Source: Pedobacter alluvionis (GTDB lineage: Bacteria; Bacteroidota; Bacteroidia; Sphingobacteriales; Sphingobacteriaceae). Taken from it: DNA of 64,000 nucleotides. The position numbers and the translations under genes were made by a program. Positions 20,306 to 56,825 of this stretch are shown here, one piece after another. The DNA is taken from the NCBI RefSeq assembly GCF_003664035.1, contig NZ_RCCK01000011.1, positions 868,001 through 932,000 of the forward strand. The letters run 5' to 3'. The notes under the pieces were generated by a model. It did no database searches. It saw only the letters and a program-made list of their open reading frames with translations, and was not told the origin of the DNA. Positions within the stretch are counted from its first letter, which is position 1. Every line of letters starts with the position of its first letter.

Positions 20306-21511
20306 CTAACTCGGTTTTCCCGAAAGCTTGTCTTTGAAATAGTCCTGACCAGATGCTTCAGCCATGCTTTTATCAAGATTTCTTCGGGTGTCGTCGAATC
20401 GGTCAACGATCATTCCCGCTCCATCTCTGGCGCCCGCAAGGCTACCAGCACCGACCTTTTGTCCTGCACCGCCAGCCATACCAACCATTGAATTAATTTT
20501 GGTCAATAATGTATTGCCACCACCTGCATGTATGATAGCATTGGCCACATTCGGCACACAGAAATAGCCGAATATTCCGATAATCATGAAAATCAGATAG
20601 GCGGTATCTTCAGAGCTGAAAAAGGTGTCACCAGTCTGTTGTGCCTGATTGATATCCAGTTTGATCATATTCTGCTGTATTTTACCCAGAATTGCCCCAA
20701 AGATGTTCGCAATAGGAAGCCACAAATAAGTATTAATGTATCTTGCGACCCAGACCGAAAGGGTATGTTGTAAACCATCAAAGACTGCAAAGCCAAACAC
20801 TAAAGGCCCAAGTATTGCCAGAACGATTAGAAAAAAAGTGCGGACGGTATTGATACATAAAGAAGCCGCATAATACCCTAATTGAAGCACCTCACTTAAA
20901 AACTTCTTAAAATTCTGCCTCATTTTGTAATCCTGCTTGTCCGCCCAAAACAAAATATTATTGCCAATGGCCTCATACCAAGACTCCTTAGTGCCAGTTT
21001 TATCCTCTGGATGAGTGTATTTATACCATTCCTTTCTGTCTCCTGATCCGTCTTCTCCCACAAGTGCCTTCCATTTTTGTGTCTTTTTCAACTCCAGTTC
21101 CTTTTGTAAGAGCAATGCTTTAATTGCCTTATCACTGTCTTTGACCATAGCGTTCGTACCAATGACGGTGGGTTTTAGTACGCCATTCATTACGCCCAAT
21201 ACAGCGGGGAAAAACATAATGGCAAGTCCAAGGGCAAAGGGGCGCAATAAGGGATAAAAGTCGATGGGTTCGGCACGGGCAATGTTGCCCCAAACACGAG
21301 TGGCGATAAACCATAAGGCGCCAAAACCAGCTATGCCCATTGCGACCGACATTATGTCTTTGCAAAGCGGGATCATTTCATCGTAGACCTTATCTAAAAC
21401 AGATTGCAGTCCTTTAACTTCATCAGAAATGTCCATTGCCATCCCGCAAAAAGGAAATAGCAGCAAAGCAAGCATAACCAAAATGGGTATTCTTATTTTT
21501 CTCTTTTTCAT
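20306..21511 (-). CDS. traJ: Conjugative transfer protein TraJ (VirB6-like, 401 aa)
   Basis: A cleavable-looking N-terminal segment (PILVMLALLLFPFCGMAM) is followed by several hydrophobic spans: IMSVAMGIAGFGALWFIA, FALGLAIMFFPAVLGVM, FFLIVLAILGPLVFGFAV and AYLIFMIIGIFGYFCVP. The C-terminus is Gly/Ala-rich. A polytopic protein of this size between the TraI-type genes and traK is TraJ, the VirB6-like inner-membrane channel component. It begins 12 bp after the gene before it. Confidence 0.85.
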   Translation of the reverse strand: MKKRKIRIPILVMLALLLFPFCGMAMDISDEVKGLQSVLDKVYDEMIPLCKDIMSVAMGIAGFGALWFIATRVWGNIARAEPIDFYPLLRPFALGLAIMFFPAVLGVMNGVLKPTVIGTNAMVKDSDKAIKALLLQKELELKKTQKWKALVGEDGSGDRKEWYKYTHPEDKTGTKESWYEAIGNNILFWADKQDYKMRQNFKKFLSEVLQLGYYAASLCINTVRTFFLIVLAILGPLVFGFAVFDGLQHTLSVWVARYINTYLWLPIANIFGAILGKIQQNMIKLDINQAQQTGDTFFSSEDTAYLIFMIIGIFGYFCVPNVANAIIHAGGGNTLLTKINSMVGMAGGAGQKVGAGSLAGARDGAGMIVDRFDDTRRNLDKSMAEASGQDYFKDKLSGKPS

Positions 21512-23539: not shown

Positions 23540-26008
23540 TTAAGGTGATTTTATAGCCCTTATTTCCTTGGCGAGTACCGCAATTCCTTTTTGGATGCTG
23601 CCGTATTTTCTGGCATATTCCTGAACCTGATTTTTTTCCCGTTCTTCGGTCGTATAGGTCAAATATTCTTCAACCGAAACTTCCGTTCGGTATACCTTGG
23701 AATGTTCACTGCCCAGGGAAATAAAGACTTCTTTGTACTTTTTAGTGGGGTCGTTTGCTTTATTTAAGGACAGTATTTGTGCTTTCTCCTTATCAGTAAG
23801 TCCTAGTAGCTCCTGTATTTGATCAAATTTGTTTTGGTACTTGCTCTGATCCAATAGGATCTTACAATCACTATTGTTGATGATGGCGTTTTTGACAATG
23901 GGCGAGCCGATGATGTCATCTACTTCCTGCGTAACCACTATCGGTTCACCAAAGAACTTGCGCATGGTTTTGAATAGGTAACGAACATATTCAGCTGTGC
24001 CGGGCTTCGCAATTGCTTTCCAGCATTCCTCAATGAGCATTACCTTACGGATGCCTTTGAGTTTACGCATCTTGGAAATAACAAGTTCCATAATGATCAT
24101 TGTCACCACCGGAAATAAAATCGGGTGATCCTTCAAATTGTCCAGCTCAAATACGATGAACCGTTCATGCAGCATATCTAGGTTTTCTGTAGCGTTAAGG
24201 AGGTAATCAAATTCGCCTCCTTTGTAATAAGGATTGAGGACATAAAGGAAGTTTCCAATATCGAAGTCCTTTTCTTTGACTTTGCCATTTTCCAGTACCT
24301 GCATGTATTCGGACATCAGGAAATCATAAAATGAGTTGAAGCAGGGGAAAATATCAGGATTGCGGTCTAAGTGGGAAAGATATAAAGTCAGTGCATTTGA
24401 TACCGCTACGTATTCGGATCTTGTATAAGGCTCATCATCCTTTTTCCACAGGGCTAGAAGCAAGGTTTTGATGCTTTCCCTTTTTTCGGTATCCATTACA
24501 TCACCATCAGATAAATAGAATGGATTAAACTTAATCGGGTCATCTTCTGAATAAGTAAAATAATAGCCATTTACCAGATCGCATAACCCCCTATAGCTAT
24601 GTCCAATATCCATAATAACTACATGCGAACCTTGCTCATAATAGCTGCGCATCATGTGATTGGTGAAGAAGCTCTTTCCTGATCCACTTGGTCCGCACAG
24701 GAACTTTGACCTGTTTCCAATCCATGACAATTCCATTGGCAAATCACTAATGTCTACATGCACCGGATTACCCGTTAAACGGTCACCTAGCCTTATCCCA
24801 AAAGGACTAAGGGAAGATTTGTAATTCGATTCCAAATTGAAAAAGCAGGTTGATTGCTCCAAAAAGGTATCAAAGGTGTCATTCATGGGAAAATCAGCTT
24901 CATTGCCAGGTAAGCCAGCATACCAGATTTGTGCCTGCCCATCTGTCTCCTGTTTTGCCACGGCATCCATTTGAGCCATTGCTGATCCGACCAGATTTTT
25001 TAAATCCGCAGTTTTGGATGGATCATCAGACCATACAAGCACGTTAAAGTGCGCCTTTACAGGTAATTTACCTGAAGCAAGTGCCTCGTTTAAATAATCA
25101 TTGGTGGCATCACGGTTGATAGAGTTTTCACGGGAATAAGCTGATAAGGATTGCAACCGCAGTTTTTTTGCTTCCAGTCTTTTAATCGTTTGCTGGGCAT
25201 CGTCGATAAATACGTACTGATTCAGGATGTGATTACAGTTGAGCAATGCACCCAATGGACTTGCAAATCCAATGCTGAATTTTGTCCTGTCGGTACTGTA
25301 CCTGTCGTAATTGATACGGCTGCCACATAAGGCAGGCAAGTCATCAGCATCAGAAAGCGCATAAAGTTCAACTTTTTTATCCCCGACTGTGATACCGTCC
25401 TGAACATGAATGTCACGGATCATTGGCATTTGCTCACGGCCTAGAAGAAAACAGTAACGTTCAATGATTCCCGCCTTATTTGCGGTTCCTGCCAGATCAT
25501 CATCATTCAGCCTTTCTAAAACGCACAAGCCTGTATCGCTAAGAATGCGCTCAAATTGTCCTGCTGCATCTGAAAATTCCTGAAAAAGAAGCGGGTCAAT
25601 GGTTTGGGTGGGTACAATTGATTTACGAAGAATGTTGCTGTATGCAGATGTCGATACCTTTCTGCCGGATGGCTTTTTCGTTAGAAAGATGAAGCACTCA
25701 TGATCCAGATATGGACGTTCATTAAAGAACTGCTCGCTTGACCGTGAGAGAAAACTCTGGCTGTTATTGTGATAGTCAGCTTTGTGCTTTGAAGCTATAA
25801 ACCAATCCTGTTTATGGAATACGCTATGTTGTGGCAATAGCTTTATTGCCCTTACCCAAGCCTGATGGAAAATTTCATAATCCCGTTCTGATAAAGTGAA
25901 TATTTCTGGCAGGGATGCCCTGTAAACAATTGTGATGTCTCCCGCCATCGAAAGAATGCAATCGTGTTCAACTTTATAAATGGGAAATATTTTAGTTGCC
26001 TCGATCAT
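23540..26008 (-). CDS. traG: Conjugation ATPase TraG (VirB4-like, 822 aa)
   Basis: Walker A is GPSGSGKS at about residue 440, followed by HVVIMDIGHSYRGLC. Walker B is VMLIEECWKAI near residue 655, and VVTQEVDDI follows. The N-terminal 400 residues show the VirB4/CagE organisation (IFPIYKVEHDCILSMAGDI at the start). The 822-aa length is typical of TraG of conjugative transposons. It powers assembly and substrate movement of the mating channel. Its start overlaps traF by 17 bp. The Asp/Glu-Glu of Walker B and the P-loop are intact. Confidence 0.93.
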   Translation of the reverse strand: MIEATKIFPIYKVEHDCILSMAGDITIVYRASLPEIFTLSERDYEIFHQAWVRAIKLLPQHSVFHKQDWFIASKHKADYHNNSQSFLSRSSEQFFNERPYLDHECFIFLTKKPSGRKVSTSAYSNILRKSIVPTQTIDPLLFQEFSDAAGQFERILSDTGLCVLERLNDDDLAGTANKAGIIERYCFLLGREQMPMIRDIHVQDGITVGDKKVELYALSDADDLPALCGSRINYDRYSTDRTKFSIGFASPLGALLNCNHILNQYVFIDDAQQTIKRLEAKKLRLQSLSAYSRENSINRDATNDYLNEALASGKLPVKAHFNVLVWSDDPSKTADLKNLVGSAMAQMDAVAKQETDGQAQIWYAGLPGNEADFPMNDTFDTFLEQSTCFFNLESNYKSSLSPFGIRLGDRLTGNPVHVDISDLPMELSWIGNRSKFLCGPSGSGKSFFTNHMMRSYYEQGSHVVIMDIGHSYRGLCDLVNGYYFTYSEDDPIKFNPFYLSDGDVMDTEKRESIKTLLLALWKKDDEPYTRSEYVAVSNALTLYLSHLDRNPDIFPCFNSFYDFLMSEYMQVLENGKVKEKDFDIGNFLYVLNPYYKGGEFDYLLNATENLDMLHERFIVFELDNLKDHPILFPVVTMIIMELVISKMRKLKGIRKVMLIEECWKAIAKPGTAEYVRYLFKTMRKFFGEPIVVTQEVDDIIGSPIVKNAIINNSDCKILLDQSKYQNKFDQIQELLGLTDKEKAQILSLNKANDPTKKYKEVFISLGSEHSKVYRTEVSVEEYLTYTTEEREKNQVQEYARKYGSIQKGIAVLAKEIRAIKSP

Positions 26009-27380: not shown

Positions 27381-28244
27381 TCAACTGTGTTTTTTCTTTT
27401 CATTTGGATCATAAGCATCTTCATCGTCAATTTTCTTATTCACCGAAGTAACCATCTCGTCTAAATATTTTGTCCTGCTTAGGCGTTTACGCATTTTAAT
27501 TTCCAGAAACCTTCGGTACGGCCTGCCAATGTTCACATTAAAAACTTTCTCCAGTTTTCTGACCAGTTCGCCAATGCCAATTTTTCCGTGGTTGACCTGA
27601 GCAGTACAGTAGATTCCGTAGGCAACCTCCAATAGATTTATGGTTTCTCCAGTCCAGTTGGTTTCAATATCATCTTCTGTAAAAGGATGAAATTCCAGTC
27701 CTGAAATGGCACTTTCGAGATACCTGGCTATTTGTTCATTTGCCATGATGCGTGCAAACATGTAATCCCCTGCGGTGGAAAATCTTTCATCCTGATCCAC
27801 CCGTATTTTGCACATCCAGCGAGGTGGATCTATTACACCACGAACAAATAGTTGCGGGTCCAAATAGTCGTCTTCAGATCGATAGTAAGAATATATTTGC
27901 CTGTTCGCATCGAAAAAGCGCTTGATCGCCTTTAACTCATTTTCATAATAACCTTTCAGGTGTGAGAGGCCACCTTCTGGTTTATCCATTTCAATTTTTT
28001 CCACGGCACTATAGAAAATCAGCAGGCTACTAAACTTCGGCTTGATTTCTTTGAAAAATAGAATTTCTTCATCCAGCGATTCAAAAGAATAGTCGAGTAT
28101 TTTCTCTTTTAAGCTCATTAAATAGCTTGAGGTCGTTTCCACCCTTGCTTTTCTTTGTGCTACCATACTTTGGTCAGACGAGTCGATTTTCTCCAGCTCC
28201 TCACGTTCTTCCCTGTAATGGATATCTGCAACTTGTTTTATCAT
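27381..28244 (-). CDS. rteC: RteC-like regulator of conjugation/excision (287 aa)
   Basis: The start at 28244 (MIKQVADIHY) is preferred to an upstream in-frame ATG at 28331, because the latter adds an atypical hydrophobic stretch and lies inside an inverted repeat. The protein is helix-rich, with LHFF-type early helices (ILFFKEIKPKFSSLLIFYSA) and a C-terminal winged-helix-like end (YRRFLEIKMRKRLSRTKYLDEM). This is the pattern of RteC, the CTnDOT DNA-binding activator of excision genes. It lies upstream of the tra operon on the same strand. Confidence 0.8.
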   Translation of the reverse strand: MIKQVADIHYREEREELEKIDSSDQSMVAQRKARVETTSSYLMSLKEKILDYSFESLDEEILFFKEIKPKFSSLLIFYSAVEKIEMDKPEGGLSHLKGYYENELKAIKRFFDANRQIYSYYRSEDDYLDPQLFVRGVIDPPRWMCKIRVDQDERFSTAGDYMFARIMANEQIARYLESAISGLEFHPFTEDDIETNWTGETINLLEVAYGIYCTAQVNHGKIGIGELVRKLEKVFNVNIGRPYRRFLEIKMRKRLSRTKYLDEMVTSVNKKIDDEDAYDPNEKKKHS

Positions 28245-28301
28245 AACGCTTAGTTTTAGGTAAATAAGGGGCAAATTGGGGTGATTTATTTTTGTAAAAA
28301 A

Positions 28302-28331
28302 GTGACAACCATGACATAGGACAATTGTCAC
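28302..28331. promoter_or_regulatory. Inverted repeat upstream of rteC
   Basis: GTGACAA, 16 bases, TTGTCAC: perfect 7-bp arms. The TGACA/TGTCA half-sites recall the shared operator, although the TTGGGTAG centre is absent. It lies 58 bp before the rteC start and may allow autoregulation. Confidence 0.5.
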
Positions 28332-30296: not shown

Positions 30297-30349
30297 CGAA
30301 TTAATTGAAAAAACTTCGTTTATTGGGCTTTTTCACTAAAATCTTTACC

Positions 30350-30916
30350 ATGAAAGCCCTTGTAGAAAAACTCGAAAGCTTTAATACTGCTACAAAAGAC
30401 ACCGTTGACTTACTAATTAATCTGTTTGTAAAAACCGAATTTAAAAAAGGATGGATTTTAGGAGACTCACCTTGGCAACAGACGCCAACACTTTTCTATA
30501 TCTCAGACGGACTACTTCGCGGAACAGTTGAATATGGACAAACGGTATATACTATGTGGTTGATGGAAAACGGATTTTTGATTCCAGGTAACAGGTTTCT
30601 TAGCAACCGTAACGGCATTACTGAAATTATTGAATTTCTGAGCGACACACACGCTTATGCGCTCAATCTATACAGAGCAGATAATATTGCAAAGGACAAT
30701 ATTTCATTATATAAAATGCTCCTTGAAATCTACGAGGAAAACCTGATCGAAGGACGTAAAAGAGAACTAATGCTTAGGATGGAAACTGCTGAAGAGCGCA
30801 TTAACTATTATAAAAAAAGTAACCCCTCCATCATTTATAAAACGGACAAAAATATCTTCGCCCCATACGTCAGGATGAGTGTACGTCATCTGGACAGGTT
30901 TAAAGGCGAAAAATAG
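30350..30916 (+). CDS. Crp/Fnr-like transcriptional regulator (188 aa)
   Basis: A cyclic-nucleotide-binding-like beta-roll is suggested by the segments KKGWILGDSP, LFYISDGLLRGTVEY and YTMWLMENGFLIP. A helix and a short C-terminal region (ERINYYKKSNPSIIYKTD, then APYVRMSVRHLDRF) correspond to the weak HTH seen in many Bacteroidetes Crp-like proteins. The start at 30350 (MKALVEKLE) replaces a longer frame at 30305. It may control the adjacent MauE/DUF6520 genes. Confidence 0.7.
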   Translation: MKALVEKLESFNTATKDTVDLLINLFVKTEFKKGWILGDSPWQQTPTLFYISDGLLRGTVEYGQTVYTMWLMENGFLIPGNRFLSNRNGITEIIEFLSDTHAYALNLYRADNIAKDNISLYKMLLEIYEENLIEGRKRELMLRMETAEERINYYKKSNPSIIYKTDKNIFAPYVRMSVRHLDRFKGEK

Positions 30917-31182: not shown

Positions 31183-31647
31183 ATGGAAATTACAGCCTAC
31201 AGTAGACCGTTTCACCTTAGCAGCAAGACAAAGGATTTGATTGTCTTTATTATCTGCCTGATATGCATCTTCTTATTTTTGACTTCTGCGTACGATAAAA
31301 TAGCAGAACACTCCAAATTTGTACGGGGATTATCTAAAGTTGCATATATAGGTAGCTATGCGGAGCTGATCGGTTGGCTAGTACCGATTACGGAAGTAGC
31401 CATTTCATTACTGTTAATCAACCCCAAAACTCATAAATTGGGATTGACAGGATTTGTTGCTACGATGGTTGTATTTACAGCCTATATCCTTAGCATGATC
31501 CTATGGGCAGAAAAGCTTCCATGCCATTGTAATCTGATCATAGAAAGACTCACCTGGGGGCAGCACATCTGGTTCAATCTCGCCTTTATCATAATTGCAA
31601 CCTTTGCCCTGTTCCTCAAAACAAACATTTCTAAACATAAACATTAA
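31183..31647 (+). CDS. MauE-like membrane protein (154 aa)
   Basis: Four hydrophobic segments are visible: LIVFIICLICIFLFLTSAY, LIGWLVPITEVAISLLLI, LTGFVATMVVFTAYILSMI and IWFNLAFIIIATFALFL. Between the last two lies LPCHCNLIIERLTWGQH, with two Cys. This is the MauE/DoxX-like pattern seen in Bacteroidetes. MauE is needed for disulfide formation in methylamine dehydrogenase, so a redox role at the membrane is plausible. It is followed 3 bp later by the small secreted protein gene. Confidence 0.75.
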   Translation: MEITAYSRPFHLSSKTKDLIVFIICLICIFLFLTSAYDKIAEHSKFVRGLSKVAYIGSYAELIGWLVPITEVAISLLLINPKTHKLGLTGFVATMVVFTAYILSMILWAEKLPCHCNLIIERLTWGQHIWFNLAFIIIATFALFLKTNISKHKH

Positions 31648-31650
31648 AAA

Positions 31651-31956
31651 ATGAAAAATTTACAAAAATTCGCTGTAGCCCTCCTAGTAGGTATTATGGC
31701 AATAGGCTTCAGTGCCTTTAAAGCTTCAGACAAAAAAGTTAGCGGTCAATTTGCTGAAAAAACTTATTACCGTGTTGGAGCAAATTATGTTTTCCCTGAG
31801 CCTGCAGGAAGTTGCGAAACTCTTGATAATATTTCCTGTTCAATTACATTTTCAGGAGATCAGTTGCCATCAGTAGAATCGTTCCCTGTTGGAAGCACTC
31901 CAACTGGAGCTTGGACTGCTGAGCCTTCATCAAATAAAGGTGGTTACGAAGATTAA
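31651..31956 (+). CDS. DUF6520-like small secreted protein (101 aa)
   Basis: An N-terminal signal (KFAVALLVGIMAIGFSAFKAS) precedes a short mature region with two Cys (SCETLDNISCS) and a Gly/Ser/Pro-rich tail. DUF6520 and NVEALA-type peptides are Bacteroidetes-specific and usually sit next to MauE-like genes, as here. It is the second gene of a two-gene unit ended by a strong terminator. The two Cys may be oxidised by the MauE/TlpA-type partners; this is inference. Confidence 0.7.
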   Translation: MKNLQKFAVALLVGIMAIGFSAFKASDKKVSGQFAEKTYYRVGANYVFPEPAGSCETLDNISCSITFSGDQLPSVESFPVGSTPTGAWTAEPSSNKGGYED

Positions 31957-31964
31957 ATGGCAAA

Positions 31965-32001
31965 GGCGGGAGTTTGTATTTTACAACTCCCGCCGTTTTT
32001 T
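31965..32001 (+). terminator. Terminator after the DUF6520 gene
   Basis: GGCGGGAGTT, 10-nt loop, AACTCCCGCC, then GTTTTTT on the plus strand. It is GC-rich and is also suited to stop the convergent SusCD-TlpA operon, which ends at 32000. Confidence 0.88.
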
Positions 32002-33565
32002 AATCTAAAGACTTATCGATTAGCTTTATAAATTGTTTTTCATTAGCCTCTGAAGTCAGATTCACTCCCTTGCTAATGGATCTGCCATTAGGAGTAAGAT
32101 CAACTCTCGGTGGAGAAGTAGAGATTAACTGCCCCTTTTTACCTATAATCAGTTGCCTTGGAAAAGCAGTTATATTGTAGTTTTTTATAAGTGGATGAGA
32201 AAGCCCTAATCCTGCGGTATATAAATTGACGGAATTTAATGATGTATATTTACCTGATATTATACTTTTCATCCATTTATCTTTGTCTTTATCTACACAT
32301 ACCGTAATAAAAACAACATTTTTATTGGATCTATACTTATTTATAACAGGCTCCATTGCCTTGTTTAAAGACATGCACCAACTGCATCCAGTATACCAGA
32401 AATCTAAAACAATTACTTTGCCGTTGTATTCACTTAAGGTATGAATCCTACCATTTGTATCTGGAAGTTCAAATGCAAAGGATCGATATTGTTTGTACAC
32501 AAGCTCCTGTAGAAGATGAGAATATTTTTTATCATTCATAGTTAGCAGGGCATCATCAATTAGAGAAAGGCTTTCTTCAAAATAATCTCTATGTAGTCTT
32601 TCAAAACAGATATAAATTAACTTATCCCTCAAGCTTCCGTTATAAGAGTTTTTTAATTTGAAATAAATTTCAGAAAATGAATCGCCTCTATAACTGGAAC
32701 CCTTTTTATTATAAAGTTGAAAAAATGTAAGTTCTCTTTGAAATAGCATTTCAGCAAAATAGGCCGATTTTAAACTATATTTAGGAGCTACTTTTGCAAA
32801 TGGATCATTTTTAAGAGAACTATTGTAATATTCAATGGCAGCTTTTTTTCCTTGTTCGCTACGTTCAATTGTGGATTTAACACTCATTCTCCAGAGAAAA
32901 CTTCTTTTTTCATATTCTCCCAATGATAAAATATCCAAATTGAATAATTCATATATTTTGTTGGAAAACATATCTTTATAGCTATTTAATATCTCTCTAC
33001 GTATTTTTGTAGCTAGATCAACTACTTTATGGCGTACATTTAATTTTGTTGAATACTCACCCAAATTATCTAGCTCACTTTCTCTATAAATTATACCCTT
33101 TTGGTTTAAATCAATATTGTAATATTGCCATTGACAGTTTAGTTTCGAACTGCCTTTTCCAGAAAAGTTAAAAATACCGCTTTTATCAATTTTGATATCT
33201 ATGCTATCGCCCACCTCTATAAGATAGACTTCTCTAAGTGCTCTATTTCCACTAGAATTAATAGTCACGAATCTATCGTCGTTTAATTTGTCTATAAGTT
33301 CAAAAGATATATACGCACTGGAATCTGGTAATTCTAATTTTAGTGAGAAATTCGCTGTTCTTAAAATTGGGGCCTTAAATACCGCTCCTTGGCTTTGTAG
33401 GTTAGTTGTTTCATTAATCCTTATATAGATTTCATTACTTGCATACCGTTTTATAAGTCCTGTATCTAAAGTGCCAGTTATTGTCACACTATGTTTTTGG
33501 GCTTTAACTTGAGATATGTTTATTAGTATAAAGATTAAAATAGTCGATTTTAATATTGAGTTCAT
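32000..33565 (-). CDS. TlpA-like thioredoxin-fold lipid/periplasmic oxidoreductase (521 aa)
   Basis: The start at 33565 (MNSILKSTILIFILINISQ) gives a signal peptide ending in KAQ. The N-terminal part resembles DUF4369-type beta-rich domains and is followed by a helical middle. The C-terminal thioredoxin fold begins ELPDTNGRIHTLSEY and holds the active site CSWC (residue 400 or so), followed by FITVCVDKDKDKW. It is the third gene of the susC-susD operon. It probably reduces or rearranges disulfides of imported or exported substrates. Confidence 0.8.
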   Translation of the reverse strand: MNSILKSTILIFILINISQVKAQKHSVTITGTLDTGLIKRYASNEIYIRINETTNLQSQGAVFKAPILRTANFSLKLELPDSSAYISFELIDKLNDDRFVTINSSGNRALREVYLIEVGDSIDIKIDKSGIFNFSGKGSSKLNCQWQYYNIDLNQKGIIYRESELDNLGEYSTKLNVRHKVVDLATKIRREILNSYKDMFSNKIYELFNLDILSLGEYEKRSFLWRMSVKSTIERSEQGKKAAIEYYNSSLKNDPFAKVAPKYSLKSAYFAEMLFQRELTFFQLYNKKGSSYRGDSFSEIYFKLKNSYNGSLRDKLIYICFERLHRDYFEESLSLIDDALLTMNDKKYSHLLQELVYKQYRSFAFELPDTNGRIHTLSEYNGKVIVLDFWYTGCSWCMSLNKAMEPVINKYRSNKNVVFITVCVDKDKDKWMKSIISGKYTSLNSVNLYTAGLGLSHPLIKNYNITAFPRQLIIGKKGQLISTSPPRVDLTPNGRSISKGVNLTSEANEKQFIKLIDKSLD

Positions 33566-33578
33566 AATGCAATGGATT

Positions 33579-34940
33579 TTAACGATCATTTTGTTTTATG
33601 CCACTTAAAACTATTTCATCGGCAGGAATGGGTAGTACATACTTAGGACTATTCGGCTCTAGGGTATATATTTGACCATCAAGATTACGAGTTATCGTAA
33701 TTTTCCTGCCTTCTAAATTCAGTCTTTTCAGATCTGTCCACCTGATGCATCTCCATATTAATGCCTTCCTACGTTCAATTAAAACTTTATTCAGAAGATC
33801 CTCTGAATTCAAGGCGGTGATTGGAATAAATGTACCGGACATTCTCGTTTTAACAAGTGCATTTAAAAAGCTTAATGACTCATCAATCTTATTTCTTCTG
33901 GCCAAGCATTCGGCCTTAATCAGATACATTTCATCAGTTGCCAAGCCAGTGAATGGATAGTTTATTTGACTATTTATGCCTTTACTAACTGCATAATTTC
34001 CATTATTATTTACTCTAAAATATACAGCCTTTCGTAAATCAGAAGCACTATAAAGACCAAGTAGTGTTGGTTCTACCCCGTAAAGTGCGCCAGTGGAATA
34101 AGTTGTCTGTGAATATGCAGAATTAGTATTATGTGAAAAATAAATTGTCTCTTCACTATTATACGTGAAAGATGAACTGGTTTTTATTGTTAACGAATTA
34201 AAATTGATAAGTTTCGAATATAAAGCCATCGATTTATCCACATAGATTTCGGCCTGATCATACTTTCGCATACTGATGAAAACCCTAGCTAGTAAAGCAA
34301 AGGCGGCCACTTTTGAAGGTCGATTTCTTTTTAATGCGGGGATGTCTTGTTGCAATAACTCACTTGCCTCAATCGCGTCGTTTACAACTTGATCGTAGCT
34401 TTGCTGAACAGAATTTCGCTGTACTATTTCTGTAACAGCGGAATTTAATTTTAACGGGATTCCCAGATCAGTCGTTGCAGTTTCAGAATTATAGGCTTTT
34501 GCAAATGTGCTTAATAGTGTATAAAAGGCATAAGACCTTATAAAAAGAGCCCATCCCTTTATTCTTTTCTTTTCGCTATCGTTACCAACATCCTGCTTAG
34601 ATAATTCGTCGAGAACACTATTTGCATAAAATACCTGTGCATAAGGCTCTGTCCAGTCCATGATCTGAGATTGCCCTTCAAATATGTCTTTCTGCCATAT
34701 ATAAGCAGCACGGGTGATTGGAGTAAACAGTGATTGGAAATTGGCTAAGGTTGGTATGTAATATTCATCGGCTGACAATTGAGGAAGGGCAGATGTTTTA
34801 TTCATTACCTGTGTATTATCTAAAAGATTTTCAAATTCTGCAATTGTTTTAGGTATCACAAGTGTATTATTGGGCTTTAAATCAAGCTTTTTGCCGCACC
34901 CAAATAGGCTAACTGCTAATAATATAATGATCTTTTTCAT
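33579..34940 (-). CDS. SusD/RagB-type outer-membrane lipoprotein (453 aa)
   Basis: The N-terminus KKIIILLAVSLFGCGKKLDL is a lipoprotein signal with the Cys at residue 15. The body has the helical TPR-like SusD pattern, with RIKGWALFIRSYAFYTLLSTF and KVAAFALLARVFISMRKYDQAE. The C-terminal RCIRWTDLKRLNL and YVLPIPADEIVLS are typical SusD endings. It forms the lid over the SusC-like channel encoded 10 bp upstream. The substrate is unknown; no carbohydrate enzyme is nearby. Confidence 0.9.
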   Translation of the reverse strand: MKKIIILLAVSLFGCGKKLDLKPNNTLVIPKTIAEFENLLDNTQVMNKTSALPQLSADEYYIPTLANFQSLFTPITRAAYIWQKDIFEGQSQIMDWTEPYAQVFYANSVLDELSKQDVGNDSEKKRIKGWALFIRSYAFYTLLSTFAKAYNSETATTDLGIPLKLNSAVTEIVQRNSVQQSYDQVVNDAIEASELLQQDIPALKRNRPSKVAAFALLARVFISMRKYDQAEIYVDKSMALYSKLINFNSLTIKTSSSFTYNSEETIYFSHNTNSAYSQTTYSTGALYGVEPTLLGLYSASDLRKAVYFRVNNNGNYAVSKGINSQINYPFTGLATDEMYLIKAECLARRNKIDESLSFLNALVKTRMSGTFIPITALNSEDLLNKVLIERRKALIWRCIRWTDLKRLNLEGRKITITRNLDGQIYTLEPNSPKYVLPIPADEIVLSGIKQNDR

Positions 34941-34950
34941 GATTATATAG

Positions 34951-37900
34951 TTAAAATTTTAGATTAAAACCTACTGTTCCGCTAAAAGGCTGAGGTATAT
35001 TGAATGTACCATAGTCAGGATCAATGCTTAGTTCATTAGTCTTCCATAGAATCCCCAAATTTTTAGCGTATAAGAAAAAGCTTGCGTTTTTAAATAAAAA
35101 ACTGCTAATTTTTTGTCCTGTTAAGTGATATGATAACCGAATATCTTGTAGCCTTATATGATCAGCTCTATCTACTAAGTCTTCCGAATTTAAGAAGAAT
35201 GAATCCATTGCTCCATTTGCGGGATACGTAAGGGCAGGAATTTTTGTGCTCAATTCATCGCCTGATTTTTGCCAACGCTGACTATAGTCTCTCGATGTGT
35301 ATGAATAATTATTGCTGCCAGAAAACACAGATAGTTTTCTAAAATAATAACCAAGTTTATAAATTACATTGAATGACAATTCAAGATTTTTATAACTGAA
35401 AGTATTTATTATGCTACCAAAAAACTTAGGGGAGGCAGAGCCATGAAACTTTAACTGCTTGGTATCTAATAAGCTAATTATTTCAGAATAGTTTTTACTT
35501 ATTGCTCCATTCAAATATCCTTGTGGAGCACCACTGTTATCAAGTCCGGCAGACGGGTAGCTGAAAATTGCATAATATGGATATCCTTCTAATGGATTGT
35601 TATAATTACCACTTATAATGTTTCCGTTAGAGGTTTGTTTAATTTTGTAACTTGTGACTTTGTCTGTATTATAGTTAAAAAGGGCAGCTGTTGACCATTG
35701 AAAGGCGCCTTCAATATTTTTAATATTTAAAATTAGGTCGATTCCTTTTGTTCTGAGACTTGCTCCATTCCCTTTAAACTGAAATACCCCAGACTGCATA
35801 GCAATGGGATTGTTGCCTATCAGATCTTCTGCATCTTTCTGATAAAAATCGATACTTCCAGAAATCCTATTTTTTAATACTACATAGTCAAGACCTAAGT
35901 TATATGTTTTCACCTTTTCCCATCTTAGAAATGGATTAGGTGGGTTTCGTACCCTAGAATAATTGCTTCCCCACTCATTAATAGAACCCGTATTAGTTAG
36001 AGTAAGAAGCCCAGATATATTTTTATCTAAATTGCCGTTATAACCAAAAGTAGCCCTTAATTTCAAGGAGGAAATCCATTCAGAATTTAGAAAATTTTCT
36101 TTGTCTATTATCCATGCCAACCCAGTAGACCATAACGGCACGCCTTTTTGATTTGCTTTTACTCCAAATAAATTAGACTCATCTCTTCTTGCACTGCCAG
36201 AAATGATATACTTCTTTTTATAGGTGTATGAAATGTTTGTATAATAAGACTGTGTTATATCTGTTTGTGAACCTAAACTTGGAGCAGTTGGTATTTGTTG
36301 AGATGTGCTTGGCGCGTAATAATATGGATAAAATATCAATGGATTAATTGTACCATTTCCATTAGTTAACGTTTCAGGATTATAACCAAAATAACTTTGG
36401 CTTGTAGAATTCCCTCTCGTGTCTCCTCCTTCAAATCCAATGATTGCATTAATATCATGTTCTGAACCAAATGATTTATGATAGTCTAACTGGAATCTTA
36501 AAATTTTAGAAATAAGATTTCGAACTGAATTTTCTAGTATCCCTCCAAGTGGTATTGGCCTATTTAATGTATTACCTACAATTGAGGAATACCGATTTAT
36601 GAGATCTCTAGTATAAAAACTTTGTTGAGGATAATTATTTTCATTTGAATTACTCTCTTTTAAATATTGATATTTCGCAGATAAAGTCAGTTCTTCTAAT
36701 ATATTATAGTTGATTCCCAAATTTATTTTGTATTGGACTTGTTTAAGGACGCTATTAGCCTTTAGCTCGTCGATGGGCTTATAGTGCCAATCTAATAACT
36801 TGCCATTACCTACAGTGTCGACATAAGCCGAACGTAAATTTTTAATCACAGATAACGGTTCTCCATTAGCTGAAACAATTTGATCATATGGTGAATATGG
36901 TAAATATGGCTGTGAGGCGCTATAAGTATTTCCTGATGCGAACCCAATGTCACCTACGATTTCGAGATGATCTTTAAATAAAGAAAATGTGTTATTAGCT
37001 TTAAGAGTAAAACGGTCAAACGCATTAGAAACTGAAGTCTCCATATTTTTGTCATATCCACCTGACAAGTAATATCTGTTGAATTCTCCACCTCCATTTA
37101 AATTCAATTGATATTGCTGATAAACACTAGGTCTATAGAAATATCTTTTAAGATCAATACGGACATCTCTTTCTTTTAAATTGTTTATGGAATTGGTTGA
37201 ATCAACTTTAGATATTTTCCCTAATTTCCGATTGTTAAAAATTTCGATTGCCTCTGAAACTGGACGATACCCACTATTTATAGCGCTAGTATAGTACCCT
37301 TTTGCATATAAATATTCTTCAAGATCTATAAATTCAGAAGACGACATTTGATCTTGATAGTAAAGATTTGGTTTTCCTCCTATAGTAAGAGTTGAGGATA
37401 ATTCGACCTGTAGTTTCTGATTTTTACCTCCTCGCTTAGTAGTAATTACTATTACACCATTACTAGCCTTAGCCCCCCAAATCGAAGCGGCCGCTGCGTC
37501 CTTTAGTAATGTTATAGAAAGAATATCAGCGGGGTTAATTTGTTCAATCGATCCCTCATAAGGAAAACCATCTAATACTATAGTGGGTTCTGCACTTGCA
37601 AAGAGTGTACTTCTTCCCCTAATGGAAATTTTGGGATTGTTTGCTCCGTTTGTTAATCCTTTATTTAAAATTAACCCACTACTTACGCCGTCTAATCGAT
37701 CAAGGATATTAACACCTACATTACGGTTTAGGGTTTTATTTTCTAGTTGGACAAAGCTTCCGGTTGCTCTTTCCTTTGGGATATTTTGATAGCCCGTACT
37801 AACGACTTGTACCTCTTCTAATCCATTATCCTCGGTAAGCATACGTACATTTAGAAATTCATCTTTCTGTATGTTCTGAAGCTCAGTTGTTTTATATCCA

Positions 37901-38133
37901 ATACTTGAAATTATTAAGGTCGTACCTAGTTGGACATTATTTAATTCAAAAAGCCCCTCGCCATTTGCTATAGTTGTGGTCTTAGATTCTTTCACTTTTA
38001 TGGTAGCATTTGCAATTGGCAACCCTTTTTCATTGGTGATTCTACCTTTAATTGCAATCTTTTTAACCTGTGCCTCTACCTTTAAAAAAAAGCAAAGCAT
38101 GGCCATTACGATATATATCGTTGATTTTTTCAT
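34951..38133 (-). CDS. SusC/RagA-type TonB-dependent transporter (1,060 aa)
   Basis: A signal peptide (IYIVMAMLCFFLKVEAQ) is followed by a carboxypeptidase-D-regulatory-like domain (IKGRITNEKGLPIANATIKV). A plug with ATGSFVQLENKTLNRNV, ISIRGRSTLFAS and PTIVLDGFP follows, then a long beta-barrel ending FNIPQPFSGTVGFNLKF. No STN domain is present, so it is not tied to an anti-sigma pair. With the SusD and TlpA-like genes it makes a transporter operon carried as ICE cargo. Confidence 0.93.
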   Translation of the reverse strand: MKKSTIYIVMAMLCFFLKVEAQVKKIAIKGRITNEKGLPIANATIKVKESKTTTIANGEGLFELNNVQLGTTLIISSIGYKTTELQNIQKDEFLNVRMLTEDNGLEEVQVVSTGYQNIPKERATGSFVQLENKTLNRNVGVNILDRLDGVSSGLILNKGLTNGANNPKISIRGRSTLFASAEPTIVLDGFPYEGSIEQINPADILSITLLKDAAAASIWGAKASNGVIVITTKRGGKNQKLQVELSSTLTIGGKPNLYYQDQMSSSEFIDLEEYLYAKGYYTSAINSGYRPVSEAIEIFNNRKLGKISKVDSTNSINNLKERDVRIDLKRYFYRPSVYQQYQLNLNGGGEFNRYYLSGGYDKNMETSVSNAFDRFTLKANNTFSLFKDHLEIVGDIGFASGNTYSASQPYLPYSPYDQIVSANGEPLSVIKNLRSAYVDTVGNGKLLDWHYKPIDELKANSVLKQVQYKINLGINYNILEELTLSAKYQYLKESNSNENNYPQQSFYTRDLINRYSSIVGNTLNRPIPLGGILENSVRNLISKILRFQLDYHKSFGSEHDINAIIGFEGGDTRGNSTSQSYFGYNPETLTNGNGTINPLIFYPYYYAPSTSQQIPTAPSLGSQTDITQSYYTNISYTYKKKYIISGSARRDESNLFGVKANQKGVPLWSTGLAWIIDKENFLNSEWISSLKLRATFGYNGNLDKNISGLLTLTNTGSINEWGSNYSRVRNPPNPFLRWEKVKTYNLGLDYVVLKNRISGSIDFYQKDAEDLIGNNPIAMQSGVFQFKGNGASLRTKGIDLILNIKNIEGAFQWSTAALFNYNTDKVTSYKIKQTSNGNIISGNYNNPLEGYPYYAIFSYPSAGLDNSGAPQGYLNGAISKNYSEIISLLDTKQLKFHGSASPKFFGSIINTFSYKNLELSFNVIYKLGYYFRKLSVFSGSNNYSYTSRDYSQRWQKSGDELSTKIPALTYPANGAMDSFFLNSEDLVDRADHIRLQDIRLSYHLTGQKISSFLFKNASFFLYAKNLGILWKTNELSIDPDYGTFNIPQPFSGTVGFNLKF

Positions 38134-45866: not shown

Positions 45867-47918
45867 TTAGCGCGAAATCACTTTAGATTCTTCTTCCTCC
45901 TTTTGATCTCTGTTATCCTCTGGCAATGATTTTTCAGTCTCCTGTTCTTCTAGCTCAGCCTGCCTGGCTAAAATCTTTTCCAATTCTATTTCAAATAGCT
46001 CATCAATATCTTTCTTTATCTGGATATAGTTTTCTATAATGTCACCATAGGTGACTCTTTCGATTATAGGAATAGGTTTATATGCTTTTTCCTCTTCAGC
46101 AATAGCCTCATGGTCGTTCTGTATCTCTGCGTGAAACATTTTAAGTTTAATTTTCTGGTCTGGCGTGTCCGCCACAATACCAACGAATTCTCCTGAAGAC
46201 AACGATGCAATTTTTGATGCAGGTATCGCAGAATCCATCTGTGTTGATTTAGAGATGGAGATGTCAGAACTGTTAATACTCCTGCTCTCCCTGTCCTGAA
46301 CAATTTTCCCAAACGTTTCAGAAAGCTTTTTAGCAGTGTCGCCAGTAACCTGACCACTAATAATATTTCCTACAATCCCAGTTATAACATCCGCTTGCTC
46401 AGCACCATAATCCTTCTTTAACTGACTGAAATCCTGCACAGCCAAGGTAGTTGCAACCTTATTGCTTCTAGACGTAGCCAGAAGTCCGTCTATGCCCGAA
46501 GAGCCACCAACGTAAATAGTTGGAAATTCGTCGAAGATAAGGGAACATTTGAGTTGATTCTTCCTATTGACGAGTTTCATCATCTTAGAAACATATAGGG
46601 ATAACACTGCTCCGTATGTCTGAATCTTTTGAGGATTGTTCCCGATACAGACGATCTTTGGCTCTTTTGGGTTATTTACGTCCAGCGTAAAATCGTTCCC
46701 ATTCAGCACATAATACAATTGTGGTGAGGATAATCTCGCAAGTCCGATTTTGGCAGATGCAATCTGACCTTCCAACTGTGCCATCGCTTTATTTCTGTAA
46801 GCGGATATGAAAGGGTTGATTAGCACTTTTATTTCATCCTCTTCCTGTAGAACAGCGAACAATCTATCGTAGTCCGCCTGCATCAATTCGATCACATGTG
46901 GAAGGGTGCAAAACTTTCCATTTTCATATTTTCGTAGATACCAAATTACCGCAGTTAAAAAATTAATAGGGGATTCGACGAAAAAGTCACCTGATTTTTT
47001 TATCCAGTCCTTGTTAAGTCCTAGCATTATTGTACGGCTTGCTTCAGTAGCATCTGTAATGTCCTCCATACTGTCAGGATCTAAAGGATTACACCTATGA
47101 GTACGGCTTAAATCATCAAAGTTGATTACGTAAAATTTGGGCTTGATCTTATAATTATTTTGGTATTGCAATAATTTGTTATAGGCAATCTTGGTTAGAT
47201 CATCATATTTGAAGTCATACAAAAACATCGAAAATCCTTTCTTGATTTGCTGGTCTATAACGTGACGGATAACGAAATAGCTTTTCCCGGCACCTGGGCT
47301 TCCCGATACCAACAAGCCCCTTGTCATTGAAATTAGATTGATATAAGAATTACGGATTTTGCCTTTTAGATTGTATTTGGCTGGAAGATTTACCGATGAA
47401 TCATTTTCTAATAGCCTTTCTTCTTGTGGAAATGTCTCGTTCTCTGTATTAAAAGTATCTTGATTAAGCTTGTCTTTTATCAACCTTGATAATAGTCCTC
47501 CACCTGTCAATATTAACATATAACCAATCGATGTTATAGCAATGTAGAGAGTGGCAATTAATAGTAAATTAAGAGGTAAGAGCAAGAATAAAATACTTAT
47601 AAAGTACAGTAGCAAACCCGTTAGCAGATAAGCTATAATTGAGTTCTTTTTTAATTTCTCATCTTTTTTCCCTTTTACTCCAAAAAGGGAAATGACCAAA
47701 AATAACAATGCTGCTAGTTTAGGCTTAACCAGATTGTCAAATAATCCAGTCTTTGAAATATTGTAAATAATCCTGTCAGTTATATCAGCCGTCCATTCCC
47801 ACTGTTTAAATGCTGAATAACAGCATATATAGAAATGAATGGACAGTATGAAAATGCTAATTAGCCTCGTAAAATCTATGATTTTTCGGAGACCCTGTGT
47901 GTCTTCTCCTGTATTCAT
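45867..47918 (-). CDS. mobC: Type IV coupling protein (VirD4/TraG-like, MobC, 683 aa)
   Basis: Several N-terminal membrane helices (ISIFILSIHFYICCYSAF, LLLYFISILFLLLPLNLLL) precede the ATPase. Walker A is SGSPGAGKSYFV near residue 208 and Walker B is CSLIFDEFPTIY near residue 465. Other T4CP features are LATSRSNKVATTLAVQD and the RSRS-like segment SGQVTGDTAKKLSE. It delivers the relaxase-DNA complex to the channel. The C-terminus is acidic. It follows the relaxase by 10 bp. Confidence 0.93.
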   Translation of the reverse strand: MNTGEDTQGLRKIIDFTRLISIFILSIHFYICCYSAFKQWEWTADITDRIIYNISKTGLFDNLVKPKLAALLFLVISLFGVKGKKDEKLKKNSIIAYLLTGLLLYFISILFLLLPLNLLLIATLYIAITSIGYMLILTGGGLLSRLIKDKLNQDTFNTENETFPQEERLLENDSSVNLPAKYNLKGKIRNSYINLISMTRGLLVSGSPGAGKSYFVIRHVIDQQIKKGFSMFLYDFKYDDLTKIAYNKLLQYQNNYKIKPKFYVINFDDLSRTHRCNPLDPDSMEDITDATEASRTIMLGLNKDWIKKSGDFFVESPINFLTAVIWYLRKYENGKFCTLPHVIELMQADYDRLFAVLQEEDEIKVLINPFISAYRNKAMAQLEGQIASAKIGLARLSSPQLYYVLNGNDFTLDVNNPKEPKIVCIGNNPQKIQTYGAVLSLYVSKMMKLVNRKNQLKCSLIFDEFPTIYVGGSSGIDGLLATSRSNKVATTLAVQDFSQLKKDYGAEQADVITGIVGNIISGQVTGDTAKKLSETFGKIVQDRESRSINSSDISISKSTQMDSAIPASKIASLSSGEFVGIVADTPDQKIKLKMFHAEIQNDHEAIAEEEKAYKPIPIIERVTYGDIIENYIQIKKDIDELFEIELEKILARQAELEEQETEKSLPEDNRDQKEEEESKVISR

Positions 47919-47928
47919 AATAATGTGT

Positions 47929-49188
47929 TTAAAGGGTTAATCCTTGGTTTCTTTTTTTCTTCTTCTTCCGCCGTATTCGAGGCATATAGTCAGGCTGAGA
48001 TTTGCCTAGCAATTCATTCAGAAAATCCGTTGCGGTATTGGGCTCCAGATAAGTATGGTTGGTTTCGCCAGAGACTGGCTTCAGATATGTCGCTTGGCTT
48101 ATTGCAGGTTTTAAATAAGTTCGTAATTGATCGGATGAACTAATTAGTTGTGCAATTGCATTTCCGCTATATGCTTTGCCTAAATCGCTGCCATTAAAAA
48201 CGGTCTTATTTGCATGGTCAATAAAAGTTGTTCCGTAAATACGCCCCTGATCGTTTATCCTTAGTACCAATTCAACATTTTGTTTGTTGAGTTCAGCTTT
48301 GAACGTTTGGATAGTTAAGCGTTCGTATTTTGTAATAACCCCATTAACTTTTTTGATCATGGCTGGTTTAAATGGCTTTCGGCTTTCTAAATTTTTGTCG
48401 AATTTTTTTTCGATGTTTCGATACGTTGGTTTACTGTAAAATGCACTGGCCTTAATTGGAACTCCAATCTTATTACCTTCTTTGTCTATTAAAGAGTAGA
48501 CCAAACCTTTTTTGGCGAACATTTGGGTATCTTCTTGCCCTCTGTCTGCCGTTACATTAAATTGCCTCAATACTGCATTCAATTCAGCAATTGAAGTGTA
48601 TTTATAATTTCCTACTATAGCGGATAATACGTTGCTTATCTGCTTTTTTGTGGACGAGCGGCCATATTTCGCCTTTTCCAAGTCCGCAGGTTTAATTCCA
48701 GCTTCTTGTTTGTACTTTTTAGATTCTGCAACTATGAGATCAAATTCCTTTTCTATTTTTTTTCTAGCTGGCTCAGATAAAACTCTTCCAATATTGTGTA
48801 AGGAAATAGCTTCTCCGTTCCTCTGGATACTTGTTGTGGCAATATGGATATGTTGATGCCCTGCATCATTATGTCTGTAAACCAAAAACGGCTGCTCACC
48901 AAATCCAATCTCCTCCATATATCTAATGGCGATTTCCTGCATCTTGGTGCTGCTTATTTGCTCATCTGAATGGAAATTCAACGAGATGTGAAGCGCATTG
49001 GTTTCTACGGTGGGTTTTAGTTCAGTCAGATGCTCGAATCTTTTTAGTTTGTTACCAAAAGTCATCGTCTCGATCTCTCCGGCAAATCCACTTGCCAGAA
49101 TTAATTTTGCCTCCCCTTCAGTTACCTTGCTTTCGTTGTAGTGCAGGATTCCACGGATACTTTTACCAATCTTTATTCTTGCAACCAT
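47929..49188 (-). CDS. mobB: Relaxase MobB (MOBP-type, 419 aa)
   Basis: The three-His motif is HNDAGHQHIHI, residues 106-116, and the N-terminus MVARIKIGKSIRGILHYNE is typical of Bacteroidetes MobB. The catalytic Tyr is probably the one in ILHYNESK (residue 17). The C-terminus is basic. It nicks at oriT and starts the transfer strand. It overlaps the MobA-like gene by 16 bp and is followed by the coupling protein. Confidence 0.93.
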   Translation of the reverse strand: MVARIKIGKSIRGILHYNESKVTEGEAKLILASGFAGEIETMTFGNKLKRFEHLTELKPTVETNALHISLNFHSDEQISSTKMQEIAIRYMEEIGFGEQPFLVYRHNDAGHQHIHIATTSIQRNGEAISLHNIGRVLSEPARKKIEKEFDLIVAESKKYKQEAGIKPADLEKAKYGRSSTKKQISNVLSAIVGNYKYTSIAELNAVLRQFNVTADRGQEDTQMFAKKGLVYSLIDKEGNKIGVPIKASAFYSKPTYRNIEKKFDKNLESRKPFKPAMIKKVNGVITKYERLTIQTFKAELNKQNVELVLRINDQGRIYGTTFIDHANKTVFNGSDLGKAYSGNAIAQLISSSDQLRTYLKPAISQATYLKPVSGETNHTYLEPNTATDFLNELLGKSQPDYMPRIRRKKKKKRNQGLTL

Positions 49189-53256: not shown

Positions 53257-53907
53257 CTAGTTCCCCGAAATCATATTTATAATCAATGATGCACGTTTTT
53301 CATTGAGAATGGATAAAAATGAATTAGTTTCTGCAACAATTAACGACCGTCTTCCTGCAACTTTTTGTATTAATGCATCGATTTTATTCAGCTCTTTTTC
53401 AAGTTTTTCAACAATTTGTAATTGAATCTTCTTATCAGGAGCGGAAACCCAGTAGTTAGGAAAATTGTCGAATTTAATAGATTGTCTAACCCCGCCTCCC
53501 AGAGAATAGTAAAACTTCGCTAGATCGGTAGCATATAAGAAGTAAAACCAATACTTATCATAGTGCTCTTGCGAGACTGACACAACATCGTAAGCTGATG
53601 TTATAATACCTTTATGAAGCGAATACGCCTGCCTCAAACTCCTTTTATCGTTTTGAAGATCAGTGAGTCGCATAACAATGTCGCCTTTTTCTACAATTTG
53701 ATACGACTCAAAACTTTCTGGAACTAAGCCTTCATTATTTTCAATGTCCTTCTCAATAATTCTTCCATAACTTAGAGATAATAAGTTTTTTTCTATCATC
53801 CCATAGTTTTTATTTGTCTTCTTGGCTTTAAGAATTTGTTTAAACTTATATAAACCCCAATCTTTTGGGGGTATGATTCCGTGGATAATTTCTTGAAGCG
53901 TAATCAT
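53257..53907 (-). CDS. hsdS: Half-size type I specificity subunit HsdS (216 aa)
   Basis: One target-recognition domain is present (LSLSYGRIIEKDIENNEG, then GDIVMRLTDLQNDKRS and GGGVRQSIKFDNFPNYWV). One conserved helix follows (LQIVEKLEKELNKIDALIQ). Full HsdS proteins have two such halves and about 400-450 aa. The start overlaps hsdM by 4 bp and the stop lies 3 bp before hsdR, so it is not truncated by a later event. Two copies probably pair and read a symmetric split site. Confidence 0.82.
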   Translation of the reverse strand: MITLQEIIHGIIPPKDWGLYKFKQILKAKKTNKNYGMIEKNLLSLSYGRIIEKDIENNEGLVPESFESYQIVEKGDIVMRLTDLQNDKRSLRQAYSLHKGIITSAYDVVSVSQEHYDKYWFYFLYATDLAKFYYSLGGGVRQSIKFDNFPNYWVSAPDKKIQLQIVEKLEKELNKIDALIQKVAGRRSLIVAETNSFLSILNEKRASLIINMISGN

Positions 53908-55922: not shown

Positions 55923-56593
55923 TTTTGGTATCATTCCTGTGTGTGCTTTTAATTAGCTATTTAAAGCAGACATTTTGTTATAAAATATTTCGCAAGTTAA
56001 TGAAATAAGGGTATCATTTTAGCCCGCTAGGTCATTTTCTGAATACTAAATCATTATTCCTTTATCTTCTGTAACTTAAATATTAAAAATATATAATACT
56101 TATATCTAATAAACAACTCGATATTTAATTAACAAAATACTTGACATCAGTTTTAATTGAGCCGCCGAAATTGCTGGTTAATGCCATGAGGATGTTGTTA
56201 ATTTATATAGTGCATATAGCTTCAAAACTATAGGTGCAGTGAAAGATTGATCCATAAGTTCTAATAGGCCATAACATCAAAATTTAAAAACCTTTTTTGA
56301 AATGGTAAGGGAGTTTAGATTTGCCATTTTCCTATTATCATTTCACCGGATTAAACAATACAGGGGATTGTAAATGCTAATTAACCTTGTTATAAAGATG
56401 TAGCCAGGTCGTGATATTTATATTCATCTGAAATTTCTACAAACCTTAAATATAAAAGGACGCAAAAACATATTGCTCTGGTGTAACCAATTTTAAAAGC
56501 ATTTCCTAAATATACCAGCACCTACGAAGACATTTTCTTGCAGAATGCACCTGCAGAATTTGAAAATTATATGTATTAATTTCATCTTAATTC
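55923..56593. other. Gene-free region upstream of hsdM
   Basis: About 670 bp of very AT-rich DNA between the divergent hsd operon and the recombinase operon. I found no convincing reading frame, RNA gene or repeat beyond the operator at its right end. It must hold the hsdM promoter. Confidence 0.5.
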
Positions 56594-56658: not shown

Positions 56659-56825
56659 TGCTTATGAAAACAGACAACGATATAATTAGAAGCTTAACCC
56701 CTGAAAAAGTTATAGAGGATCTCGATAAAAGAGGGATAACAATATCGAAAAAAGATGCTGAAAAATATTTGGATTTGTTGTATTTTTTAAGTAAATTGAT
56801 TGTAAATCAGAACTTTATAAAATGA
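56659..56825 (+). CDS. Small protein coupled to the recombinase (54 aa)
   Basis: The protein starts MLMKTDNDIIRSLTPEKVI and has a helical end (KKDAEKYLDLLYFLSKLIV). Its stop overlaps the recombinase start (ATGA), so the two are translated together. The track start upstream at 56604 is rejected because it falls in the operator. It may be a directionality or regulatory factor, by position only. A start at 56665 is equally possible. Confidence 0.6.

Follow-up and report, generated by a model that had tools for sequence, protein, structure and literature searches.

A Conserved MauE, Cysteine-Peptide and SusCD Gene Cassette of Pedobacter alluvionis and Related Bacteria: A Possible Peptide and Receptor System

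The window analysed here is a 64,000 nucleotide stretch of the Pedobacter alluvionis genome (contig NZ_RCCK01000011.1, positions 868,001–932,000). Near its centre, genes for a MauE-family membrane protein and a small exported protein with two cysteines converge on a tlpA-susD-susC operon, and the survey described below gives good support to these being one conserved cassette. Our preferred reading, to which we give a probability of roughly 0.48, is that the small protein would be exported as a disulfide-bonded peptide and serve its own SusCD pair as specific ligand, and most likely as cargo, with MauE and TlpA handling its cysteines and the whole cassette travelling on mobile elements.

The Cassette in P. 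alluvionis

The MauE gene (31183..31647, + strand) specifies a predicted four-helix membrane protein that matches PF07291 (E 6.8e-24, 85 bits against a cut-off of 27) and carries a CxC pair at C114 and C116. The small gene (31651..31956, + strand) starts 3 bp past the MauE stop codon and encodes 101 residues, with cysteines at positions 55 and 63 and an N-terminus that resembles a signal peptide (signal peptides were judged on sequence alone). The protein scores below the DUF6520 cut-off (PF20130; 22.9 bits against 25.4, E 1.1e-4), yet 28 of its 64 relatives match that family (best E 3e-9), and it is thus taken to be a divergent DUF6520 relative. Facing these two genes is a tight operon on the − strand, read leftwards from 38133 to 32000. 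It begins with a SusC/RagA-like TonB-dependent transporter (34951..38133; TIGR04056 E 8.9e-145, 484.4 bits against a cut-off of 368.25; TIGR04057 E 2.5e-13), which adjoins a SusD/RagB-like outer-membrane lipoprotein (33579..34940; PF14322 E 1.1e-29, PF07980 E 2.1e-7), and ends with a TlpA-like periplasmic thiol-disulfide oxidoreductase (32000..33589; PF13905 E 5.1e-11). The last has a C-terminal thioredoxin domain with the CxxC motif CSWC and is TlpA/ResA-like by this standard, at a score under the NCBIfam equivalog cut-offs.

Between the two convergent operons is a hairpin (GGCGGGAGTT/AACTCCCGCC) followed by a T-run (31965..31994, no strand; −25.1 kcal/mol, z −6.2). It is likely to be a terminator shared by both operons, and was absent from the output of the terminator scan. 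A Crp/Fnr-like regulator (30350..30916, + strand; ATG at 30350, with an alternative upstream TTG at 30305) lies 267 bp upstream of MauE. This protein had no Pfam match of its own; when it was aligned with homologues found upstream of other MauE genes, 10 of the 14 members matched cNMP_binding. An earlier note on this DNA had described a MauE-like protein and a two-cysteine small protein converging on susC-susD-tlpA, a Crp/Fnr-like regulator next door and no carbohydrate enzyme nearby, and all the genes were found where it placed them. Its DUF6520-like label is borne out by the relatives of the small protein, while the window protein itself stays under the threshold.

Survey of MauE Loci

The MauE profile was chosen for the survey because DUF6520 proved a weak handle when used as the sole search profile (8 of 61 genomes). 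Searches with it yielded 79 named loci in public genomes, and 107 of 151 family genomes had a match. In total, 198 unique MauE loci were read (L-numbers below denote individual MauE loci), and counts were based on the 186 for which 7.5 kb or more of downstream sequence was available, a sample biased to strong MauE matches. Convergent SusC and SusD genes occur in 172 of the 186, the small protein (or a fusion of it) in 175 and a TlpA protein or an S9 or M16 peptidase in 169. All of these are present together in 162, whereas control stretches 200 kb away carried both SusC and SusD in three of 20 cases and MauE in none of 20. The first 40 family loci, taken one per genome, had convergent SusC and SusD without exception (40/40). 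The earlier note had presented these genes as a group, proposed a neighbourhood survey of DUF6520 with MauE and TlpA, and named a lack of co-occurrence with TlpA/SusCD genes elsewhere as a refutation; the co-occurrence is found elsewhere, and the group is recurrent.

In a sample of the phylum, 44 of 392 genomes had MauE matches. The four MauE genes examined from outside the class (L237–L240) were accompanied by neither SusCD nor the small protein, and the cassette claim is therefore restricted to the class. Two of these outside genes (L238 1406–1855 and L239 9260–9709) adjoin a gene for a beta-propeller.

Three variants can be distinguished. Type A, which includes the window, has MauE and a two-cysteine protein and no propeller. 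In type B, a domain of about 355 residues is encoded by a separate gene, and in type C, mostly from Flavobacteriaceae, MauE is fused to a domain of this type and accompanied by a four-cysteine protein and an S9 peptidase. By structure prediction (predicted local distance difference test, pLDDT, 86.5) the extra domain of types B and C is a beta-propeller, the structural matches being to generic propellers; no propeller gene is present in the window cassette. Reading from the nearest gene, the facing operon is TlpA-SusD-SusC in 67 loci, SusD-SusC-TlpA in 57 and S9-SusD-SusC in 37, with SusD-SusC alone (8) and M16-SusD-SusC (3) being rarer. Since peptidases occupy the TlpA slot in relatives, a peptide substrate is favoured over a carbohydrate. 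Carbohydrate import was rejected on this ground and because no carbohydrate enzyme was found among the scanned proteins near the window locus (part of the window open reading frames, ORFs, was scanned), which accordingly does not qualify as a polysaccharide utilisation locus. Regulators also vary: an AraC-type regulator accompanies many flavobacterial copies, and LytTR proteins are near some copies.

Cysteines and Redox Motifs

In a first set of small ORFs, 143 of 144 had an even number of cysteines (2, 4 or 6) and the sole exception looks spurious, as do the odd-cysteine ORFs that were inspected in a larger set. Members of the two-cysteine class mostly have 6–7 residues between the cysteines, which are the sole invariant residues among the 64 relatives of the window protein. 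The redox motifs of the partner proteins are similarly maintained, the MauE CxC in 141 of 143 cassette loci and the TlpA CxxC in 77 of 79 cassette proteins. These patterns point to a disulfide-based chemistry, and agree with the earlier note in its view of MauE and TlpA as disulfide-type proteins and of the small protein as carrying one cysteine pair. In three loci MauE and the small protein share one reading frame (L138 8657–9427, L199 8879–9682, L286 8777–9607), although an internal start could still yield separate products. A sequence search of MauE against solved structures gave no match.

Departures from the motifs were seen in the TlpA proteins of L157 and L205, which lack the second cysteine (CSSS and CRAS). 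The genome of L191 (G017) has 16 MauE-type matches, and at L191 one MauE copy without the second cysteine of CxC adjoins a 308-residue protein with MauE-like and CxxC parts.

Two other roles for the small protein were considered and are not favoured. A metallophore is made somewhat less likely by the conservation of cysteine only, the variation of the other residues and a mature part that is acidic on average. A subunit of a tryptophan tryptophylquinone (TTQ)-type dehydrogenase is disfavoured by the lack of a conserved tryptophan in the small proteins and by the generic nature of the propeller match.

Co-Variation of the Small Protein with SusCD

The small gene lies about 0.1 kb from MauE and 2–4 kb from SusC. 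In type A (96 loci), the mature domain of the small protein shows a partial rank correlation of 0.19 with SusC given MauE and of 0.09 with MauE given SusC, values each reached in none of 300 permutations. In type C (36 loci), the values are 0.36 with SusC (0/300 permutations) and 0.06 with MauE (67/300). Among pairs of loci with close mature domains, SusC was closer than MauE in 21 type A cases and the reverse held in one; for type C the corresponding counts were 24 and five. The mature domain follows both SusC and SusD more than MauE; the type A signal peptide tracks MauE instead (0.31 given SusC). For the window, the nearest mature domain, SusC and SusD all belong to L034, the MauE of which shares only 36% identity with that of the window. 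At the DNA level, the pairs L139/L133 and L266/L127 are 78–80% identical through the small gene, SusD, SusC and TlpA and show no match in MauE, the breaks falling exactly at the junction of MauE and the small gene. Linkage predicts the reverse, that the mature domain should follow the adjacent MauE, and so its agreement with the more distant SusC argues for functional matching of the small protein to SusCD. The evidence for this is good but not final, given modest correlations among related loci.

The same co-variation and breakpoints, along with conserved redox proteins, would be expected if the small protein were instead a permanent part of its own SusCD complex, as an accessory subunit or a gate, folded by MauE and TlpA and co-varying across a stable interface. 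Extra stable subunits have precedents on Bacteroidota TonB systems, such as BtuG on BtuB (PMC10404256). A mature domain that conserves cysteine alone fits such a subunit poorly, as do the S9 and M16 peptidases in the place of TlpA. In some loci the small gene is repeated in tandem (L025 10522–12616, L027 10563–12101, L062 10473–11488), which would also be odd for a subunit, and in L027 the stretch between the cysteines differs in every copy. We consider an accessory subunit rather unlikely, and prefer to see the small protein as a ligand.

Lanthipeptide Enzymes beside MauE

A LanB gene lies within about 0.5 kb of MauE, and divergent from it, in 11 loci (Pfam E down to 2e-82). By coordinates there is one further case (G141), giving 12 of about 111 PF14028 hits in the 151 genomes. 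In four loci a gene for a LanKC/LanL-like protein (RamC_N plus kinase) precedes MauE in the same orientation, at a spacing of −3 to 23 bp (L141 9403–12030, L159 7612–8925, L268 7204–8628, L278 7210–8514); a LANC domain was seen in that of L141, and the LanL and LanKC NCBIfam scores are under their cut-offs. Six of the nine RamC_N hits in the family genomes are, by coordinates, directly upstream of a cassette MauE. The chance expectation is well under one for either adjacency, a rough estimate from about 160 MauE matches listed and about 700 Mb. In L143 (9515–14309), L150 (4159–8937) and L206 (9611–14043) genes for a LytTR response regulator and a histidine kinase come after a full-length LanB divergent from MauE, and no LanC was seen beside LanB in the loci read, these three among them.

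These associations raise the possibility that the small protein, at least in the LanB and LanKC members, is the lanthipeptide-like precursor of a ribosomally synthesised and post-translationally modified peptide (RiPP), with SusCD as the uptake or target receptor and the window as a stripped-down, disulfide-only version. MauE has also been reported in candidate RiPP clusters of Streptomyces (PMC7794033), and peptide clusters with multinuclear non-haem iron-dependent oxidative (MNIO) enzymes co-occur with SusCD in Bacteroidota (PMC12636315). However, the window cassette has no LanB, LanM or LanKC/LanL enzyme, and the two LanB matches of its genome lie elsewhere, away from the cassette. LanB is optional, as L133 has one nearby and L139 lacks it despite a mature domain that is almost identical to that of L133. 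The lack of LanC in the LanB-linked loci that were read and the even cysteine counts, which suit disulfides, also weigh against a RiPP precursor, and we regard this reading as unlikely.

Mobile-Element Setting

The window cassette sits within a CTnDOT-like conjugative element, identified by the surrounding genes for TraJ (20306–21511), TraG (23540–26008), RteC (27381–28331), a YWFCY coupling protein (45867–47918) and a relaxase (47929–49188), which together span 20306–49188. The nearest relatives of the window are Sphingobacteriaceae. The earlier note was silent on the mobile-element setting, on the fusions of MauE with the peptide, on the propeller-bearing variants and on the lanthipeptide enzymes of related loci. 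The window also carries type I restriction-modification genes (HsdR 50287–53253, HsdM 53904–55934) and a serine recombinase (56822–58381).

The same genome has at least 56 SusC matches and three further cassettes of MauE and a small cysteine protein. One (L187/L003) has convergent TlpA-SusD-SusC, the second (L188/L004) has the order tlpA-susC-susD, and the third (L189/L005) has a fusion of MauE with a propeller, and an S9 peptidase in the TlpA position. This third cassette most resembles Chryseobacterium copies (MauE 71%, SusC 65%). An ORF for a lipoprotein-like product of about 70 residues, with a similar PP-rich charged C-terminus, was seen upstream of MauE in L187 (10239–10472), L083 (9708–9914) and L085 (9566–9787).

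Shared mobility might by itself explain the grouping, with SusC-SusD-TlpA as an importer of ordinary peptides from the environment, accompanied by an independent periplasmic redox pair of MauE and the small protein. The conjugative element is in keeping with this, as are the SusC-SusD operons of this genome that have TlpA and no MauE. The near-universal convergent pairing across several families, and a mature domain that follows SusC over the adjacent MauE, make it quite improbable.

Proposed Mechanism

Under the preferred reading, that the small protein is a ligand of its own SusCD, the Crp-like regulator would, from its position, control the MauE-peptide operon, and the small protein would leave the cytoplasm by means of its signal-peptide-like N-terminus. 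In the periplasm the CxC of MauE may oxidise or shuffle the peptide cysteines, as its motif and the fusions suggest. The variable mature domain would then be the specific ligand, and probably the cargo, of the opposite SusC-SusD, given their co-variation. Back in the periplasm, TlpA may open the disulfide or, in members where a peptidase replaces it, S9 or M16 enzymes may cut the peptide. The earlier note had proposed that a disulfide-bearing peptide is made and moved across the outer membrane. The recurrent unit, the conserved redox motifs, the paired cysteines and the tracking of SusCD by the mature domain agree with this, but SusCD pairs import, and the movement would then be a re-import.

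Several points weigh against this mechanism. An exit route for the peptide is not encoded in the cassette. For the small protein, structure prediction gave a weak model (pLDDT 70) without a fold match; the alignments of mature domains are poor and the locus pairs behind the modest correlations are not independent. Some pairs depart from the co-variation, such as L023/L144, which have a similar peptide and SusC proteins only 24% identical. In L163/L151 the MauE proteins differ (60% identical) and there is no clean DNA break. Because TlpA accompanies MauE-less SusCD operons in this genome as well, the third gene need not act on the cassette peptide.

Carriage on conjugative elements, and joint variation of a hypervariable ligand with its receptor, would suit a private signal or competition peptide more than nutrient uptake. 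A broader and distinctly tentative extension is a horizontally moving peptide-receptor system of Bacteroidota, in which a MauE oxidation module might be combined with interchangeable modules of SusCD and a hypervariable disulfide peptide (sometimes lanthipeptide-modified), used as a private signal or competition weapon. Bacteroidota have many SusCD pairs, mostly without a known substrate, so that a cassette encoding SusCD and its probable ligand would offer a directly testable one. It could reveal a widespread system of peptide communication or competition spread by conjugation, and DUF6520 gains from it a first role that can be tested, as does MauE beyond methylamine metabolism.

Comparison with Known Systems

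The mau genes (mauE, mauD, mauA, mauB) share with the cassette the MauE membrane protein, a thioredoxin-like partner (MauD/TlpA), a small exported cysteine protein and, in variants B and C, a beta-propeller. They differ in that SusCD is central to the cassette and absent from mau, and in that no enzyme was found in the cassette. The locus is not a methylamine dehydrogenase cluster: the small proteins have 2, 4 or 6 cysteines and about 1% tryptophan, none of it conserved, the propeller match is generic and the window has no propeller. MauE is proposed to aid disulfide formation in the small subunit of methylamine dehydrogenase (PMC7794033, citing van der Palen 1997).

Class I (LanB) and class III/IV (LanKC/LanL) lanthipeptide clusters resemble a minority of the cassettes, in which such enzymes adjoin MauE. 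Most cassettes, including that of the window, have no such enzyme, LanB is not paired with LanC in the loci read and the cassette small protein has a signal-peptide-like N-terminus. The MNIO peptide clusters of Bacteroidota (PMC12636315) likewise have a secreted small peptide with SusCD nearby, and one includes a prolyl oligopeptidase; the cassette differs in showing no MNIO enzyme, in its MauE and disulfide logic and in its precursors.

RagAB-type SusCD peptide importers share the SusC/SusD pair and, with the S9 and M16 enzymes of cassette relatives, a peptidase as third gene, which may be a sign of RagAB-like peptide import by the cassette. RagAB alleles are also described as varying (PMC11817032). 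What sets the cassette apart from these importers is that its operon faces genes for an exported cysteine peptide and MauE. In the literature library searched, no paper for DUF6520 or NVEALA was found. There are partial precedents, in the MauE of candidate RiPP clusters (PMC7794033) and the SusCD pairs beside modified peptides (PMC12636315). The cassette itself is an undescribed mobile unit present in many Bacteroidota, and the way its importer varies along with the small protein suggests a private peptide-and-receptor system.

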